Source: Micromonospora carbonacea (lineage in GTDB: Bacteria > Actinomycetota > Actinomycetes > Mycobacteriales > Micromonosporaceae). From it: DNA of 64,000 bases. Shown piece by piece: positions 180-44,491 of this stretch. The stretch spans positions 1,400,001 to 1,464,000 of the forward strand of contig NZ_JACHMZ010000001.1 in NCBI RefSeq assembly GCF_014205165.1. Direction: 5' to 3'. Made by a program: the position numbers and the translations under genes. The notes under the pieces are model-generated. The model ran no database searches, was not told the DNA's origin, and saw only the letters and a list, made by a program, of their open reading frames with translations. Numbering within the stretch: position 1 is the stretch's first letter; every line of letters starts with the position of its first letter.

Positions 180-401
180 CTACGCTACCGGGGGTTTGAC
201 GTAGACGCCTCGGCCAGGCTGCCCGTACACGAGGTCCCGCGCCTTGAGCTGGATCATCACGAACCGGATGACCGTCTCGCTCACCTCGTACTGATCGCAC
301 AACTGGCGGGTGCTGGGTAGACGGTCACCGGGCTTCAACACGCCAGCCTCGATCTGGCGCGTGATGTCGTCGGCGATCTGTTGGTATAGCGGCTCAGCCA
401 T
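180..401 (-). CDS. Minimal GntR-family transcriptional regulator
   Basis: A 73-residue protein (MAEPLYQQIADDITRQIEAG...) that is essentially only the GntR winged helix-turn-helix. LYQQIADDITRQI is helix 1, LPSTRQLCDQYEVSETVIR is the recognition region, and GRGVYVKPP is the wing end. It has no effector domain, so it resembles the shortest YtrA/WhiH-like or plasmid-type GntR proteins. The start at 401 is chosen because GGGAGG lies about 6 nt upstream; a longer frame to 479 has no support. It is divergent from the three-gene mini-operon at 506-1106 and separated from it by about 105 bp, which suggests that it controls that promoter and its own. Ligand unknown. Confidence 0.82.
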   Translation of the reverse strand: MAEPLYQQIADDITRQIEAGVLKPGDRLPSTRQLCDQYEVSETVIRFVMIQLKARDLVYGQPGRGVYVKPPVA

Positions 402-460
402 CGATGCCCTCCCCACGCAAGGGAACACGTAAGGCACCACAGCAGCCGACACGGGGTATC

Positions 461-489
461 TTCGGTACACCAGGTACACCCAGTAACGT
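461..489 (+). promoter_or_regulatory. Promoter with tandem GGTACACC repeats (putative GntR operator)
   Basis: Between the divergent GntR gene and the mini-operon lie a possible -35 TTCGGT (461-466), a 17-bp spacer and a -10-like TAACGT (484-489). The spacer holds two adjacent 9-bp repeats, GGTACACCA (464-472) and GGTACACCC (473-481). Their position between the promoter elements suggests an operator; the assignment to the GntR protein is inference. Confidence 0.45.
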
Positions 490-505
490 AGGTTGTGAGG
501 TGCCG

Positions 506-682
506 ATGGTTCGCCACGACGAATACCTGCTGGTCGCAGCTCTAACCCTTGCCCGGCGGCATCGGCCGGTGTGGTCCTGGGTCAGGTGGCGGCGGGTATG
601 TCGATGCGGCTCGGAGCTGCCGTGCCGGGCCAAACATCGCGTCCCGGCCAGCAGGGGGCGCCGGCCCGGTGATCGATCGTGA
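506..682 (+). CDS. Small Cys-containing protein, first gene of a three-gene mini-operon
   Basis: A 58-residue protein, MVRHDEYLLVAALTLARRHR..., with a CRCGSELPC motif that could bind metal and an Arg-rich tail. The start at 506 has GTGAGG 5 nt upstream. Its stop (680-682) overlaps the GTG of the next gene in a GTGA junction, so the two are probably translationally coupled. I recall similar small proteins near GntR genes in actinomycete integrative elements, but I cannot name a family and the function is unknown. Confidence 0.65.
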   Translation: MVRHDEYLLVAALTLARRHRPVWSWVRWRRVCRCGSELPCRAKHRVPASRGRRPGDRS

Positions 683-2203: not shown

Positions 2204-2884
2204 TCAGGCGGGGGAGAGGGCGGCCACCAGCTCGGCCATGCTGTCGATGGTGGCGTCCGCCGGGGCGAGCCGGGCGCGCTTGCCGGGCTTGTTGGCGTAC
2301 CCGATGGCGGCGACCCCGGCGGCGTGGGCGGCCTCGACGTCGGTGGCCGAGTCGCCGACCAGGACGCAGTCCGCCGGTTCGGCGTCCAACTCCCGCAGGG
2401 CCGCGAGCACCGGGTACGGGTCCGGCTTCATCCGCCCGGGCGCGGCCTCGGGGCGGCCGACGACCGGGTGCACGTACGAAGTGAGTCCATGGGCGTCCAG
2501 GTAGGCGCGGACGCACGCGGCGGAGTTGTTCGACACCACGGCGACCCGGCGGCCGGTGCGGTGGGCGGCGAGGATGACCTGCCGGCCGAACGGGGTCGGC
2601 GCGGCGGTGCGGACCGCGGTGACCTCCGCGCGGGTCAGCGCCTCGTCGACCAGCCGGACGACGGCGGGGCGGCCGAGCGTGGCGGTGAAGCGCAGCACGG
2701 CGAGCGGATCGGGCTCGCGCCGGACGACGGTCGGCAGGGGCACGTCCCGGTCGGCGAGCAGCCGGCGCAGCTCGTCGGCGACGGCCGACGCGGGGTGCCG
2801 GGCGAAGACGGCGCACACGGGCCCGTCGAAGTCGAGCAGGACCACGCGGGCGCGGCCGACGAGGGGAGCGAGAACGGCGGTCAC
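2204..2884 (-). CDS. HAD-superfamily hydrolase
   Basis: A 226-residue haloacid-dehalogenase-type phosphatase. Motif I is LLDFDGPV (about residues 16-23), motif II is VVSNNS (116-121), the motif III lysine is in MKPDP (152-156), and motif IV is VLVGDSATDVEAA (174-186). The insert between motifs I and II fits a phosphoglycolate-phosphatase-like helical cap. The GTG start overlaps the stop of the upstream EamA gene by 4 bp (GTGA), so the two are co-translated. The substrate cannot be read from sequence. Confidence 0.85.
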   Translation of the reverse strand: MTAVLAPLVGRARVVLLDFDGPVCAVFARHPASAVADELRRLLADRDVPLPTVVRREPDPLAVLRFTATLGRPAVVRLVDEALTRAEVTAVRTAAPTPFGRQVILAAHRTGRRVAVVSNNSAACVRAYLDAHGLTSYVHPVVGRPEAAPGRMKPDPYPVLAALRELDAEPADCVLVGDSATDVEAAHAAGVAAIGYANKPGKRARLAPADATIDSMAELVAALSPA

Positions 2885-3873
2885 GGCCCGGCGGCCCCGT
2901 CGGGCTGCGCCGGGCCGGGTCTTGCCGCTGCGGGGGCGGTCCGGTCCTGGCCCGCAGGGTGCAGGGCGACGACTGCGGCCAGGATGAGCGCGCCGCCGAG
3001 CAGCGCCGGCGCGGTGAGCCGCTCGCCCAGGAGCAGGGCCGCCAGGAGGGCTGCGGAGAGCGGCTCGACCAGGGTGGCCACCGTGGCGGCCGACCCGGAC
3101 GTCGTCCGCAGCCCGGCGTAGAGCAGGCCGTACGCCAGGGCCATCGTCGCGACCCCGAGGTAGGCCAGCAGGGCGAGCGAGGCGGGGTCTGCCGTGAGTA
3201 CCGGCTCGCCCGCGACGAGGGCGATCCCGAGCCAGGGGAGCAGCACCAGCGTCCCGGCGGCGGTGGCGCACGTGGTCAGGGCCACGGAGTCGACCCGCTG
3301 GGCCAGGGTGTGCCCGAGCAGCGTCGTCGCCGCGTACGTGGCCCCGGACGCGACGGCGAGGACGATCCCGAGCCCCGGCCGGCCGCCGGGGGCGGGTGAG
3401 CCGTGTCCGGCGGTCGCGCTGATCAGCACCAGCCCGGTGAGCGCCGCCGCCAGCACGGCCACCTCGCGCAGCGACGGGCGTGACCGGGCGACGGCGTGCT
3501 CCCAGGCAGCGGTCAGGACCGGTGCCAGCCCGAGCGAGACGACGGTCGAGACGCTCACGCCGACCAGCAGGACGGAGCCGAAGTACAGGGCCTGGTAGAG
3601 GGCGGTGCCGACGCCGACCACGACGGCCAGCACCGGGTGGGCGCGCATCGTGGCGAGCACGACGCCCGACCGGCGGGTCGCCACGGCGAAGCCGGCCAGG
3701 GCGACGGCGGCCAGCGCCATCCGCCACGCGCTGACCGTCATCGCGCCGAGGCCGTCGCGGTCGTGCAGCACGGTGACCACCAGCCCGCCGGTGCCCCACA
3801 GGACGCCTGCCGCGCAGACCTGGAGCAGCCCGATGCGGGCGCGTCGGTGGGTGGCCTCCGCTGTCGTCGTCAC
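2881..3873 (-). CDS. EamA/DMT-superfamily transporter
   Basis: A 330-residue membrane protein with about ten hydrophobic helices in two repeated EamA halves. The first begins LLQVCAAGVLWGTGGLVVTV and the second near GLGIVLAVASGATYAATTLL. Family members export small metabolites such as amino acids. The C-terminal 25 residues (AGQDRTAPAAARPGPAQPDG) are a polar tail. It is the first gene of a two-gene unit with the HAD hydrolase. No substrate can be assigned. Confidence 0.87.
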   Translation of the reverse strand: MTTTAEATHRRARIGLLQVCAAGVLWGTGGLVVTVLHDRDGLGAMTVSAWRMALAAVALAGFAVATRRSGVVLATMRAHPVLAVVVGVGTALYQALYFGSVLLVGVSVSTVVSLGLAPVLTAAWEHAVARSRPSLREVAVLAAALTGLVLISATAGHGSPAPGGRPGLGIVLAVASGATYAATTLLGHTLAQRVDSVALTTCATAAGTLVLLPWLGIALVAGEPVLTADPASLALLAYLGVATMALAYGLLYAGLRTTSGSAATVATLVEPLSAALLAALLLGERLTAPALLGGALILAAVVALHPAGQDRTAPAAARPGPAQPDGAAGP

Positions 3874-3962
3874 GGGACCAACCTATGCGGCGCGCCGAAC
3901 TTGTTCGATCCGATTTACGCCACCCTGATGCCAGGAGTGGTGCCGGATCGCGCCAACCTGGC

Positions 3963-3999
3963 TTGTTCGTGTGCCATTCATGTGCCATAGTGGTGCCAT
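3963..3999 (+). promoter_or_regulatory. Leaderless promoter carrying three 11-bp-spaced GTGCCAT repeats
   Basis: A -35 TTGTTC (3963-3968), a 17-bp spacer and a -10 CATAGT (3986-3991) stand 6 nt before ATG 3998. TGTGCCAT occurs at 3970-3977 and 3981-3988, and GGTGCCAT at 3992-3999, exactly one helical turn apart, covering the spacer, the -10 and the start codon. This layout fits cooperative binding by the ribbon-helix-helix product of the downstream gene. Confidence 0.6.
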
Positions 4000-4531
4000 G
4001 GACCTGAACTCCTACGTGAGCAACCTCGGGCGCGAGTTCGCCACCCTCGCCGAGGCTGGCGGCGACGAGTCGCGGTTGCTAATCGAGCGCCTGACCGGGG
4101 CGCTGGAATCGGCGATCCGGATGACCCTGCTGGAGGCGCTGTCGGCCGCGGCCGACGAGATCACCCGGGACCTGGCCCCGGGCTCGGTGGAGCTGCGCCT
4201 GCGCGGGCGCGACCCGGACTTCGTCGTGACCCCGCCGCCCGCCGAGCCGCCCCGGCCCGTCGCGGACGGCGGCACGGCGACGGCCGCCGGCACGCCGGAC
4301 GCCGCCCTGCCGATTGCCGAGGACGGCCCCGCCGCGCGGATCAACGTGCGCCTGCCCGAGCAGCTCAAGGCCGCGATCGAGGAGGCGGCGGCGCGGGAGG
4401 GCCGCTCGGTCAACGCCTGGCTGGTCCGCGCCGCCACCGCGGCTCTGCAACGGCCCGACCCCGACCAGCGCCCCGAGCCCCGCGACAGCGGCAGGCGCGC
4501 CCGGCAGAGCTTCACCGGCTGGGTGCGCTGA
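3998..4531 (+). CDS. HicB-like / ribbon-helix-helix DNA-binding protein
   Basis: A 177-residue protein. Residues 1-70 are helical (MDLNSYVSNLGREFATLAEA...), the middle is a Pro/Ala-rich linker, and about residues 114-150 are a ribbon-helix-helix: ARINVRLPEQLKAAIEEAAA, then REGRSVNAWLVRAATAAL. This is the Arc/HicB fold that binds DNA as a dimer through a beta ribbon. No HicA toxin is adjacent. The neighbours are a DUF4097 protein and an ABC exporter, so it is more likely a local repressor than an antitoxin. Three direct repeats over its own promoter suggest autoregulation. Confidence 0.8.
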   Translation: MDLNSYVSNLGREFATLAEAGGDESRLLIERLTGALESAIRMTLLEALSAAADEITRDLAPGSVELRLRGRDPDFVVTPPPAEPPRPVADGGTATAAGTPDAALPIAEDGPAARINVRLPEQLKAAIEEAAAREGRSVNAWLVRAATAALQRPDPDQRPEPRDSGRRARQSFTGWVR

Positions 4532-4691
4532 CCGGAACCCGCCCCACCGCCACCGCCACCGCACCACCCGCCACAGCGCCACCCCCCACACCTCACCCGC
4601 GCCGCACCACCCCCCACGCCGGGCCGCACCCCCCGGCCGCACGTCCCCGACCTGCGGGGACGACCCACCCACCCACGATGCGGAGACGACC
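4532..4691 (+). other. C-rich, G-poor intra-operon spacer
   Basis: From about 4543 to 4650 the + strand is almost only C and A with scattered G (CCACCGCCACCGCCACCG and runs of C). Such unstructured C-over-G stretches can act as Rho-loading sites. No gene or Shine-Dalgarno sequence is seen apart from the region just before ATG 4692. Confidence 0.4.
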
Positions 4692-5531
4692 ATGCCTACT
4701 TTCGAGACCCCCGGACCGATCGCCGTCACGCTGGAGCTCGGCGTCGCCCACGTGCGGGTCGCCGCGAGCGACCGGACCGACACCGTCGTCGAGGTCCGGC
4801 CCAGCGACGAGACCGACGAGTCCGACGTGCAGGCCGCCGCGCAGGTCCGGGTCGAGTGCGCCAACGGCGCGCTCCAGGTCACCGGCCCGAAGCGGACGTT
4901 CGACTTCTCCAAGAAGAGCAGGTCGGTGGAGGTCTCCATCGAACTGCCCAGCGGCTCCCCGCTCTCCGCCCACCTGGTGATGGGCGACGTCCGTTGCGCC
5001 GGCCGGCTCGGCGAGTGCCGGATCAGGACCACCGGCGACGTCCGGGTCGAACGGACCGGCCCGCTGCGCCTGCACACGGGGGTCGGTCACGTCGCCGTCG
5101 ACGCCGTCGCGGGCGACGCCGAGGTCTCCACCGGCTCCGGCAGGGTCGAACTCGGCGCGGTCGAGGGGGCCGCGACGGTCAAGAACTCCAACGGCGACAC
5201 CAGCATCGACGCGGCCACCGGCGACGCCCGGGTGCGCGCGGCCAACGGCGACATCCACGTCGAGCGGGCCGGTGCCGGCGTCGACGCGAAGACGTCCAAC
5301 GGCAGCATCCGGCTCGGCGAGGTGGTCCGCGGCGCGATCGTGCTCGGCACCGCCGCCGGGAACCTGGACGTCGGCATCGCCGAGGGCACCGCCGCCTGGC
5401 TGGAGGTCAACACCGGGTACGGGCACGTGCGCAACCTGCTGGAGAACACCGGCCGGCCCGGCGGGACCGAACAGACCGTCGAGGTCCGCGCCGCCACCTC
5501 CTACGGCGACATCACCATCCACCGCTCCTGA
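4692..5531 (+). CDS. DUF4097-family beta-strand repeat protein
   Basis: A 279-residue protein with repeated short strands (GDVRVERTG, GDAEVSTGSGRVELG, NGDTSIDAATGDARVRAANG). This is the DUF4097/adhesin-like right-handed beta-helix seen in many actinobacteria. It has no signal peptide or membrane segment, so it is predicted cytoplasmic. It lies 30 bp upstream of a DrrA-type ATPase and downstream of the RHH regulator, a common association whose mechanism is not established to my knowledge. It may act as a scaffold or sensor for the exporter; this is inference. Confidence 0.85.
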   Translation: MPTFETPGPIAVTLELGVAHVRVAASDRTDTVVEVRPSDETDESDVQAAAQVRVECANGALQVTGPKRTFDFSKKSRSVEVSIELPSGSPLSAHLVMGDVRCAGRLGECRIRTTGDVRVERTGPLRLHTGVGHVAVDAVAGDAEVSTGSGRVELGAVEGAATVKNSNGDTSIDAATGDARVRAANGDIHVERAGAGVDAKTSNGSIRLGEVVRGAIVLGTAAGNLDVGIAEGTAAWLEVNTGYGHVRNLLENTGRPGGTEQTVEVRAATSYGDITIHRS

Positions 5532-32230: not shown

Positions 32231-32286
32231 GCAAGGAAGGGCCCCTTCTTATCACTTTCCGCATAGCAGGGGGCCCCTGCTAACAC
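32231..32286. repeat. Dispersed palindromic repeat, copy A
   Basis: Contains AAGGAAGGGCCCCTTCTT (32233-32250) and GCATAGCAGGGGGCCCCTGC (32261-32280) followed by TAACACC. Two other copies occur at 42805 and 48505. Each unit can fold into two hairpins. Here it lies between glnE and the next gene on the same strand and may act as a terminator. Confidence 0.85.
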
Positions 32287-42804: not shown

Positions 42805-42860
42805 GCAAGGAAGGGCCCCTTGTTAACGCTTCCTGTAGAGGAAGGGCCCCCTCCTAACCA
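42805..42860. repeat. Dispersed palindromic repeat, copy B
   Basis: GCAAGGAAGGGCCCCTTGTT (42805-42824), then AACGCTTCCTGTAG and AGGAAGGGCCCCCTCCTAAC. The 5' half matches copies A and C almost exactly; the 3' half has diverged to AGGAAGGGCCCCCTCCT. It stands between divergent lipA and the aspS leader. Confidence 0.85.
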
Positions 42861-42920
42861 CCACCCGGCGGCGGCGAAAACCGCTTCCCCCCGCGCCGCC
42901 GGGCCGGTAGCTTGCGGCGC

Positions 42921-43197
42921 AGAGCTGCGACGGAGCCGAGTAGCGCGCCGCCCCGCCAGTCCAGAGAGCCGCCGAACGCTGCGAGGCGGTCTGGCGACGG
43001 CGCGCGAAGACCCTCCCGAGCTGCGGGAAGAACGGCGCGCTGTCCTCCGACACCGCGCCCAGTAGAACCCGCCCGGCTGGCCCCGGTCACCAGGCGACGA
43101 ACGAGGCCCCGCACGCGGGGGCGAAGGTGTGGTGGCACCGCGAGGACCCGCTCGCCCACACCTCCCGGGGATCGCGTTGCGATTCGATCGAGGAGGT
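42921..43197 (+). promoter_or_regulatory. T-box leader (translational type, putative Asp specifier)
   Basis: Stem I: AGTA (42939-42942), GCGCGCC (42943-42949), CGCCAG (42954-42959), the AG-bulge-like AGAGAG (42963-42968), apical GCTGCGA (42978-42984), then CTGGCG (42991-42996), GGCGCGC (42999-43005), GAA and GAC (43009-43011), the putative specifier. The T-box TGGCACCGCG is at 43133-43142 inside the helix GGTGTGG (43126-43132) / CCACACC (43156-43162). ACCTCC (43160-43165) can instead pair with the Shine-Dalgarno GGAGGT (43192-43197). Pairing of uncharged tRNA would free the ribosome binding site. Confidence 0.78.
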
Positions 43198-43204
43198 AAC
43201 CGCC

Positions 43205-44491
43205 GTGCAACGCATCCTGTCCACCCAGCTCCCCGCCCACGTCGGCGCGACCGTCCGGGTCGCCGGCTGGGTCCACCGCCGCCGGCTGCTCAAGTCGGTG
43301 GCGTTCCTGATCGTGCGGGACGCCGCCGGGCTGACCCAGGTGGTCGCCGCCGACCCGGTCGCCCGCGCCGCCGTCGAGCGGCTCACCGAGGAGACCGTCG
43401 TCGAGGTCACCGGAACAGTGGTCGCGAACCCGGCGGCCCCCGCCGGGGTCGAGCTGACCCACCCGACGGTACGACCGCTCGGCCCGCCCGCCGCCGCGCC
43501 CCCGTTCGACCTGTACCGGCCGGCGCTGGCGGCGACCCTGCCCACCCAGCTCGACCATGCACCCGTCGCCCTACGCCATCCGCGCAGGTCGGCGGCGCTG
43601 CGCGTTGCGGCGGCGGCGGTCGCCGGGTTCCGGGCCGCCCTCGACGCCCGCGACTTCGTGGAGATCCACACCCCGAAGGTGGTCGCCTCGTCCACCGAGA
43701 GCGGGGCGAATGTCTTCGCGTTGGACTGGTTCGGCCGGCCCGCGTACCTCGCCCAGTCGCCGCAGTTCTACAAGCAGCTCATGGTCGGCGTCTTCGAGCG
43801 CGTGTACGAGGTCGGACCGGTGTTCCGGGCCGAGCCGCACGACACCGCCCGGCACCTGGCCCAGTACACCTCCCTCGACGCGGAGCTGGGCTTCGTCGGC
43901 GACCACACCGACGTGATGGCCGTGCTGCGGGACACCCTCGCCGGGATGCTGGCGACCGTGGCGGACCGGGCGGGTGCCGCGCTGGGCACGCTGGGCGTGA
44001 CGGTGCCGCAGGTGCCGGCGAGTATCCCCGCCGTGCACTTCACCGAGGCCCTGGCGATCGCCGGAGCGCCGGCCGACGAGCCGGACCTGGCCCCCGCCCA
44101 CGAGCGGGCGCTGGGGGAGTGGGCCCGCCGCGAACACGGCAGCGAGTTCGTCTTCGTCACCGGGTACCCGATGGCGAAGCGGCCCTTCTACACCCACCCG
44201 GACCCGGCGCGGCCGGCGTACTCGAACGGGTTCGACCTGCTGTTCCGCGGCCTTGAGCTGGTCACGGGCGGGCAGCGCCTGCACCGGCACGACGACTACC
44301 TGGCGGCGCTCGCGGCGCGCGGCGAGCCGGTCGAGCCGTACGCCGGGTACGTCGACGCGTTCCGGCACGGCATGCCGCCGCACGGCGGCTTCGCGATCGG
44401 CCTGGAACGCTTCGTGGCCCGCCTGGTCGGCGCGGCCAACGTCCGCGAGGTCACGGCCTTTCCCCGCGACCTGCACCGCCTCATCCCCTGA
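43205..44491 (+). CDS. aspS: Archaeal-type aspartyl-tRNA synthetase (probably non-discriminating)
   Basis: A 428-residue class IIb synthetase. The N-terminal OB fold (VRVAGWVHRRRLLKSVAFLI) reads the anticodon; the catalytic domain has FVEIHTPKVVASSTESGANV, motif 2 VFRAEPHDTARHLAQYTSLD and motif 3 GGFAIGLERFVARLV with FPRD near the end. The length and motifs fit the archaeal/Deinococcus AspRS2 type rather than the 580-residue bacterial AspRS, which suggests lateral origin. It charges tRNA-Asp, and possibly tRNA-Asn. GTG 43205 has GAGGAGGT 8 nt upstream, sequestered by the T-box leader. A general AspRS probably exists elsewhere in the genome. Confidence 0.9.
   Translation: MQRILSTQLPAHVGATVRVAGWVHRRRLLKSVAFLIVRDAAGLTQVVAADPVARAAVERLTEETVVEVTGTVVANPAAPAGVELTHPTVRPLGPPAAAPPFDLYRPALAATLPTQLDHAPVALRHPRRSAALRVAAAAVAGFRAALDARDFVEIHTPKVVASSTESGANVFALDWFGRPAYLAQSPQFYKQLMVGVFERVYEVGPVFRAEPHDTARHLAQYTSLDAELGFVGDHTDVMAVLRDTLAGMLATVADRAGAALGTLGVTVPQVPASIPAVHFTEALAIAGAPADEPDLAPAHERALGEWARREHGSEFVFVTGYPMAKRPFYTHPDPARPAYSNGFDLLFRGLELVTGGQRLHRHDDYLAALAARGEPVEPYAGYVDAFRHGMPPHGGFAIGLERFVARLVGAANVREVTAFPRDLHRLIP

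Follow-up and report, generated by a model that had tools for sequence, protein, structure and literature searches.

The window, a stretch of 64,000 nucleotides of Micromonospora carbonacea DNA, carries a gene for an aspartyl-tRNA synthetase (AspRS), aspS2, placed between lipA-like and lipB-like genes that both lie on the minus strand. The gene itself is on the plus strand and is preceded by a leader with the anatomy of a T-box riboswitch: a long Stem I, Stems II and III, and an antisequestrator that shares bases with a strand complementary to the Shine-Dalgarno sequence. On re-reading the sequence we found every T-box element named in a preliminary description of this DNA in its place. The features are as follows.

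42908–42913, plus strand: −10 promoter element TAGCTT, from a TANNNT scan of leaders
42923–43204, plus strand: T-box riboswitch leader, about 285 nt before aspS2
42923–43022, plus strand: Stem I in its long form, with a K-turn-like basal part, specifier loop, AG bulge and distal loop (RF00230, 34.6 bits; pairs counted in 68 leaders)
42939–42942, plus strand: AGTA of the specifier loop, read in the sequence
42963–42968, plus strand: AG bulge AGAGAG, aligned to the RF00230 consensus AGAGA and conserved in the Stem I alignment (alignment A1)
42978–42984, plus strand: distal loop of Stem I, GCTGCGA, read directly; GCTG..GA in most rows of alignment A1
43006–43012, plus strand: 3′ side of the specifier loop, GAAGACC, with the specifier GAC (Asp) at 43009–43011
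43023–43073, plus strand: Stem II with S-turn-like strands AAGAAC and AGTAGAA, read directly and assigned by likeness to strands of the ileS leader of the same genome
43105–43122, plus strand: Stem III hairpin, 5′ of the discriminator (RF00230 alignment 43100–43159, 18.9 bits)
43126–43162, plus strand: antisequestrator (discriminator domain), helices A1 and A2 (pairs counted in 49 leaders)
43133–43142, plus strand: T-box sequence TGGCACCGCG, read directly
43133–43139, plus strand: T-box bulge UGGCACC (counted in 163 leaders), its C able to pair with G73 of tRNA-Asp (N73 = G)
43160–43165, plus strand: common strand ACCUCC, its first three bases in helix A1 and all six paired with the Shine-Dalgarno sequence in the OFF fold
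43171–43183, plus strand: hairpin AUCGC-GUU-GCGAU in the sequestrator loop, 77.9% of cells paired
43174–43180, plus strand: GCGUUGC inside that hairpin, complement of GCAACGC at 43207–43213 (first codons), 95.3% of cells paired
43192–43197, plus strand: Shine-Dalgarno sequence GGAGGU, read directly; predicted to be more often unpaired when the antisequestrator is enforced
43205–44491, plus strand: aspS2, archaeal-type AspRS of the predicted non-discriminating kind, 428 aa, GTG start (NF003483, 532.9 bits; best solved relative 1n9w/3kfu)

The string of the distal loop, GCTGCGA, is present a second time at 42924–42930. Just upstream of the T-box promoter, at 42808–42858 of the window, a 20-nt repeat, AGGAAGGGCCCC..TAAC, occurs twice, 31 nt apart; its 11-nt core is also found at 32235 and 48543, and the count of the core alone does not exceed chance expectation.

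A second AspRS and its T-box leader

The AspS2 protein scores 532.9 bits with the NCBIfam model NF003483 (aspartate--tRNA(Asn) ligase; cut-off 353) and 338.5 bits with TIGR00458 (aspS_nondisc), under the cut-off of 368.4 for the latter. Its best solved relative is AspRS2 of Thermus thermophilus (1n9w, 3kfu), which is matched with 378.6 bits over the whole enzyme and has the same H and P residues; archaeal AspRS rank behind it. The nearest named relatives, at up to 95% identity, belong to Micromonospora. The gene product had been described as an archaeal/Deinococcus-like AspRS. A histidine and a proline in the anticodon-binding domain mark non-discriminating AspRS. Of 54 T-box-linked enzymes, 51 have H24 and 53 have P79, and the four divergent enzymes compared all have E and K.

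The same genome encodes a canonical bacterial AspRS (TIGR00459, 718.5 bits), at whose locus (L005) our leader model, R1, finds no match. Searching the proteins of this genome with AspS2 at E ≤ 10 returned the two AspRS and a LysRS-like gene, with no AsnRS among the matches; GatB is present. TIGR00459 matches occur in all 101 sampled genomes of the family, 99 of them over cut-off, the other two genomes being 80% and 77% complete. AspS2 is thus an addition to the canonical enzyme. Most likely, AspS2 is a spare enzyme that can be induced to back up the housekeeping AspRS; its residues would allow it to load both tRNA-Asp and tRNA-Asn.

The Rfam T-box model RF00230 matches the leader in two pieces: 42924–43021 with 34.6 bits (E = 5.7e-6 for the 701 bases searched, E = 1.4e-5 for the whole genome), and the discriminator piece 43100–43159 with 18.9 bits (E = 0.066), a match that is weak by itself. 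In the whole genome, it yields three matches at E ≤ 10, namely these two and one at C1:1103015, which lies before an ileS gene (TIGR00392, 487.1 bits on the fragment examined). All 20 hand-chosen long-Stem-I leaders of related genes are found at E ≤ 3.2e-5, 18 of them with the full model. In a mixed set of eight loci, three match at E ≤ 0.5 (L223, L229, L095); at this threshold there is no match for the short-Stem-I loci L050, L217, L230 and L231, nor for the ileS leader of the same genome (L002). The gathering score of RF00230, 93, is reached by none of the 20 chosen relatives, and an Rfam scan gives no family at its gathering score anywhere in the window; annotation based on this cut-off therefore misses the group. 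For the T-box described earlier, the covariance model gives a significant match, here and in 20 of 20 relatives, at scores that stay below the curated threshold. Leaders of this sort are hidden by that threshold.

Specifier, covariation and cognate tRNA

We assembled 190 leaders. The genus contributed 30, with the window genome among them, and its sister genera in the family another 60; a genome scan with 221 relatives gave the 80 named loci that were retained, and 20 leaders came from sampling across the class. Duplicates, 22 in number, were dropped by a script, and five more leaders were without a T-box by pattern: L052 at a contig edge, the degenerate L146, and L224–L226, whose AspRS is only 37–38% identical. 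In the 163 distinct leaders that remain, the T-box bulge reads UGGCACC 144 times, UGGUACC 18 times and UGGCAUC once, in the mutated L204; UGG[C/U]ACC is therefore intact in 162.

The specifier is GAC in every one of the 134 script-scored leaders with a long Stem I and never AAC, and all six letters of GAAGAC are invariant across 68 aligned leaders. The other 29 comprise one long variant with GAC (L208), three leaders without Stem I (L150, L190, L204) and 25 with a short one. GAC followed by A or G sits in the hairpin loop of 24 of these 25 (read partly by eye; L084 is ambiguous), a reading weaker than the long-form count, as several short leaders have more than one GAC. A purine usually follows the specifier in T-boxes; in the window GAC is followed by C, a point against the reading.

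The tRNA letters fit the same assignment. The genome has 50 tRNA matches, and in the 18 that were checked G73 is confined to those for Asp, Asn and Ser; it fits UGGC, and the UGGN bulge of the antisequestrator matches the discriminator of tRNA-Asp. In the T-box before ileS of this genome the bulge reads UGGU, which suits A73 of tRNA-Ile. The two neighbouring frames of the specifier were rejected: AGA (Arg), the four tRNA-Arg checked having A73, and ACC (Thr), the three tRNA-Thr checked having U73, each a mismatch to UGGC. A serS T-box from another actinobacterial family (L229 in G422, 2273–2519, minus strand; RF00230, 62.8 bits; its gene TIGR00414, 362.6 bits) has the same build as the aspS2 leaders and UCC where they have GAC, which supports the register. 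The discriminator match and this serS leader strengthen the GAC call, which had been putative. Asp T-boxes in TBDB use GAC in 94% of cases (PMC7778990).

The T-box might answer to tRNA-Asn besides, or in place of, tRNA-Asp, which would link AspS2 to GatCAB-dependent asparagine synthesis. tRNA-Asn likewise has G73, residues H24 and P79 of AspS2 are of the non-discriminating kind, GatB is encoded, the AspS2 query retrieved no AsnRS from its own genome at E ≤ 10, and the lysK T-box of Bacillus cereus responds to two tRNAs (PMC2916919). We consider it improbable nonetheless: AAC never replaces GAC in the 134 scored long leaders, and the anticodon GUU would require a G-U pair at codon position 1.

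Pairing was counted for Stem I in 68 long sequences out of 90 leaders, L069 with its changed AGTA being dropped. Over 26 pairs, 95.5% of cells are paired and 190 cells show double changes, against a mean of 62.1 after shuffling; 14 pairs have double changes, a number attained in 48 of 500 shuffles, where such counts, here and below, are not probabilities because related sequences are non-independent. For the antisequestrator, the sequestrator, the start complement and the hairpin we used 49 of the 61 short-spacer leaders (of 90), leaders with a longer spacer being excluded. The 12 antisequestrator pairs are formed in 99.1% of cells, against 34–64% in slid versions, with 17 double-change cells, as high a number being reached by none of 500 shuffles. 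ACCUCC pairs with GGAGGU in 95.6% of cells, against 46–60% when slid. This helix has no double change in the 49 aligned leaders, because its Shine-Dalgarno side hardly varies. The preliminary description had ACCTCC common to antisequestrator and Shine-Dalgarno sequestrator, as these pairings bear out, and it had made its reading depend on conservation in related genomes: GAC is kept in 134 of 134 leaders, the T-box sequence in 162 of 163 and the anti-Shine-Dalgarno pairing in the 95.6% of cells just given for 49 leaders.

Four of the 80 named leaders, all from Micromonospora (L146, L150, L190, L204), lack Stem I, and L146 lacks the T-box too, so the switch seems dispensable for some strains. 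Such losses would be expected if the leader were a decaying relic with no regulatory effect, an idea hardly credible in view of the compensatory changes over many genera and the invariant GAC. In the same four leaders, a GGAAGGGCCCC...TTAAC repeat occupies the place of the missing Stem I.

Promoter, folding and mode of control

In all 129 distinct long leaders with 60 nt of upstream sequence, a TANNNT hexamer starts 20–26 nt (mostly 23–25) 5′ of the GGA motif of Stem I; the same scan counts none at 31–52 nt and four at 55–56 nt. This −10 element would set the transcription start at about 42919–42921, at the 5′ foot of Stem I. A start downstream of 43142 had been named beforehand as evidence against the riboswitch; the likely start lies before the T-box instead. 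From 43166 to 43204, before the start codon, the sequence contains no T run and no intrinsic terminator.

Folding of positions 43119–43232 covered both conformers proposed in the preliminary description: the OFF state, which forms freely and contains the sequestrator, has −46.2 kcal/mol, and the ON state with the antisequestrator −44.0 kcal/mol. The helices could be located in 78 of 90 leaders. When the antisequestrator is enforced in these, the mean probability that the Shine-Dalgarno sequence is unpaired goes up from 0.28 to 0.49, and in spacer-shuffled controls only from 0.29 to 0.30. The free minimum-energy structure is already the ON fold in 25 of the 78, and the rise exceeds 0.2 in only 37. 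In silico, sequestrator and antisequestrator would thus exclude one another as in a translational (class II) T-box, and it is from comparison and folding that we infer translational control.

We put at about 86% the probability that the T-box responds to uncharged tRNA-Asp and thereby governs how translation of AspS2, the archaeal-type second AspRS, is initiated, with the tRNA binding, the switching and its trigger as predicted here. When charged Asp-tRNA is plentiful, ACCUCC (43160–43165) would pair with the Shine-Dalgarno sequence GGAGGU (43192–43197). Uncharged tRNA-Asp would pair through its anticodon GUC with GAC of Stem I, and through its 3′ GCCA end with UGGC of the bulge. This pairing would stabilise the antisequestrator, whose A1 helix would capture the ACC that it has in common with the sequestrator; the Shine-Dalgarno sequence would then be free and AspS2 be made.

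Control of transcription, by intrinsic or Rho-dependent termination, is a very unlikely alternative to this initiation switch, given that the hairpins before the start codon have no trailing T run, that the common strand is complementary to the Shine-Dalgarno sequence in 95.6% of cells, and that shuffling the spacer abolishes the shift in folding. It draws on the long Stem I, since a long Stem I with the elbow-binding motif is general among transcriptional T-boxes and mostly lacking in translational ones (PMC7583486), and a hidden Rho site is conceivable.

A further long-range helix, between GCGUUGC (43174–43180) and the first codons GCAACGC (43207–43213), would hide the start codon and might be the real gate or a second one. 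Its cells are paired in 95.3% of cases, against 13–48% in slid versions; of 108 distinct leaders, 64 can form at least eight pairs, which shuffled sequences do in about 1.4% of cases. CAA stands at codon 2 in 73 of the 80 named loci and accounts for 41 of 775 Gln codons in the rest of the gene, and the divergent starts of L044 and L048 retain seven pairs. On the other side, at most five pairs are left in 34 of the 108 distinct leaders, one CAA-keeping lineage included; there are only two double-change cells, and 42 of 500 shuffles attain the covariation score. In the fold model the helix accompanies the ON state, which makes its sense ambiguous. We regard either role as a gate as rather unlikely. 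The conserved CAA was rejected as proof of the helix, because a Micromonospora lineage with a longer spacer keeps this rare codon with the helix gone. This lineage (L018, L025, L036 and others) has about 33 nt extra between antisequestrator and Shine-Dalgarno sequence, and most of its leaders are without the start complement.

Known T-boxes and spread of the aspS2 leader

Actinobacteria are known to have translational T-boxes upstream of ileS (PMC1262725, PMC7583486), and the available text of the 2005 actinobacterial survey reports them before ileS only (Seliverstov 2005, PMC1262725). The aspS2 leader resembles them in its Shine-Dalgarno sequestrator, which takes the place of a terminator, in its UGGN bulge, in the S-turn strands of Stem II and in its actinobacterial host; an ileS T-box is found in the very same genome. 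In contrast to the ileS T-box, it has GAC and not AUC, UGGC and not UGGU, and a second synthetase as its target, and most aspS2 leaders have a long Stem I with AG bulge and distal loop. The T-box of Bacillus cereus lysK (class I LysRS) likewise precedes an archaeal-type synthetase that exists beside a housekeeping enzyme, but it belongs to a Firmicute, acts by antitermination and concerns Lys (PMC2916919). The his operon T-box of Corynebacterium glutamicum is described as transcriptional attenuation (PMC9413887). Actinobacteria have been scanned with a class II model for TBDB (PMC7778990). Our literature search found no paper on an actinobacterial aspS T-box; the TBDB table may list one.

The aspS2 T-box of Clostridium acetobutylicum, in work by Saad from 2012 and 2013, reportedly has two specifier codons, acts on transcription and heads an operon with gatCAB. 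In comparison, aspS2 here is a single gene whose leader has GAC only and is probably translational. Both T-boxes precede one of several AspRS genes and seem tied to tRNA-dependent amidation; in C. acetobutylicum, one of three aspS genes is T-box-regulated (PMC2494555; an aspS T-box also in PMC4206432).

At E ≤ 1e-60, a sample of 200 genomes from the family yields AspS2 in 154, covering 34 of 44 genera, and AspS2-like enzymes occur in 36 of 394 sampled genomes of the class. R1 was built from family members and is biased towards them. In all 22 class genomes, from several families, whose AspS2 is at least 60% identical (41% in G380), it matches at the predicted start or no more than about 70 nt away, and in none of the 14 class genomes with a 35–39% identical enzyme does it match at the gene start. 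R1 matches at E ≥ 0.001 in eight genomes of the class sample were taken as chance; inspection of two (G574, G474) recognised no synthetase in the reading frames. A T-box of this kind before a laterally acquired AspRS had been called unusual; with 154 of 200 family genomes and other families besides, it is no lone oddity.

A short-Stem-I T-box with GAC also precedes the canonical bacterial aspS in two genomes of another family, G502 (L230, about 290–570, plus strand) and G326 (L231, minus strand), both without AspS2 at E ≤ 1e-60. Together, these leaders would extend the translational T-boxes of Actinobacteria from ileS to aspS of both types, and perhaps to serS.

A quick tree of 58 proteins, in which 20 of 55 inner branches are unresolved, implies at least six changes of Stem I class and nine of family. 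Six rows from three other families (SH-aLRT of the group 98) group with two members of the window's family that have a short Stem I (at 87), and with four more at 94. Gene and riboswitch thus appear to have travelled as a pair. With long and ultrashort Stem I before one orthologous gene and under the same specifier, these leaders make a natural series on the purpose of a long Stem I in a translational T-box.

A wider picture, which we offer tentatively and at less than even odds, is that AspS2 and its T-box make up a portable unit: a spare AspRS, inducible when required, that moved between actinobacterial families with its own sensor of tRNA-Asp. Stem I would have been rebuilt several times between long and ultrashort forms (the six or more changes of the quick tree) with GAC fixed, the enzyme would come to the rescue if starvation or inhibitors caused the housekeeping AspRS to fail, and the helix between leader and first codons would be a second gate. 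The aspS2 leader also suggests a way in which an acquired second synthetase could stay silent until needed.

In G206, one of the 22 genomes with R1 at the gene start, the AspS2 gene seems to be split by an insertion (L233, 1–5000): the T-box and the N-terminal part lie near 200–500 and the C-terminal part at about 3700–4742, with other reading frames between them.
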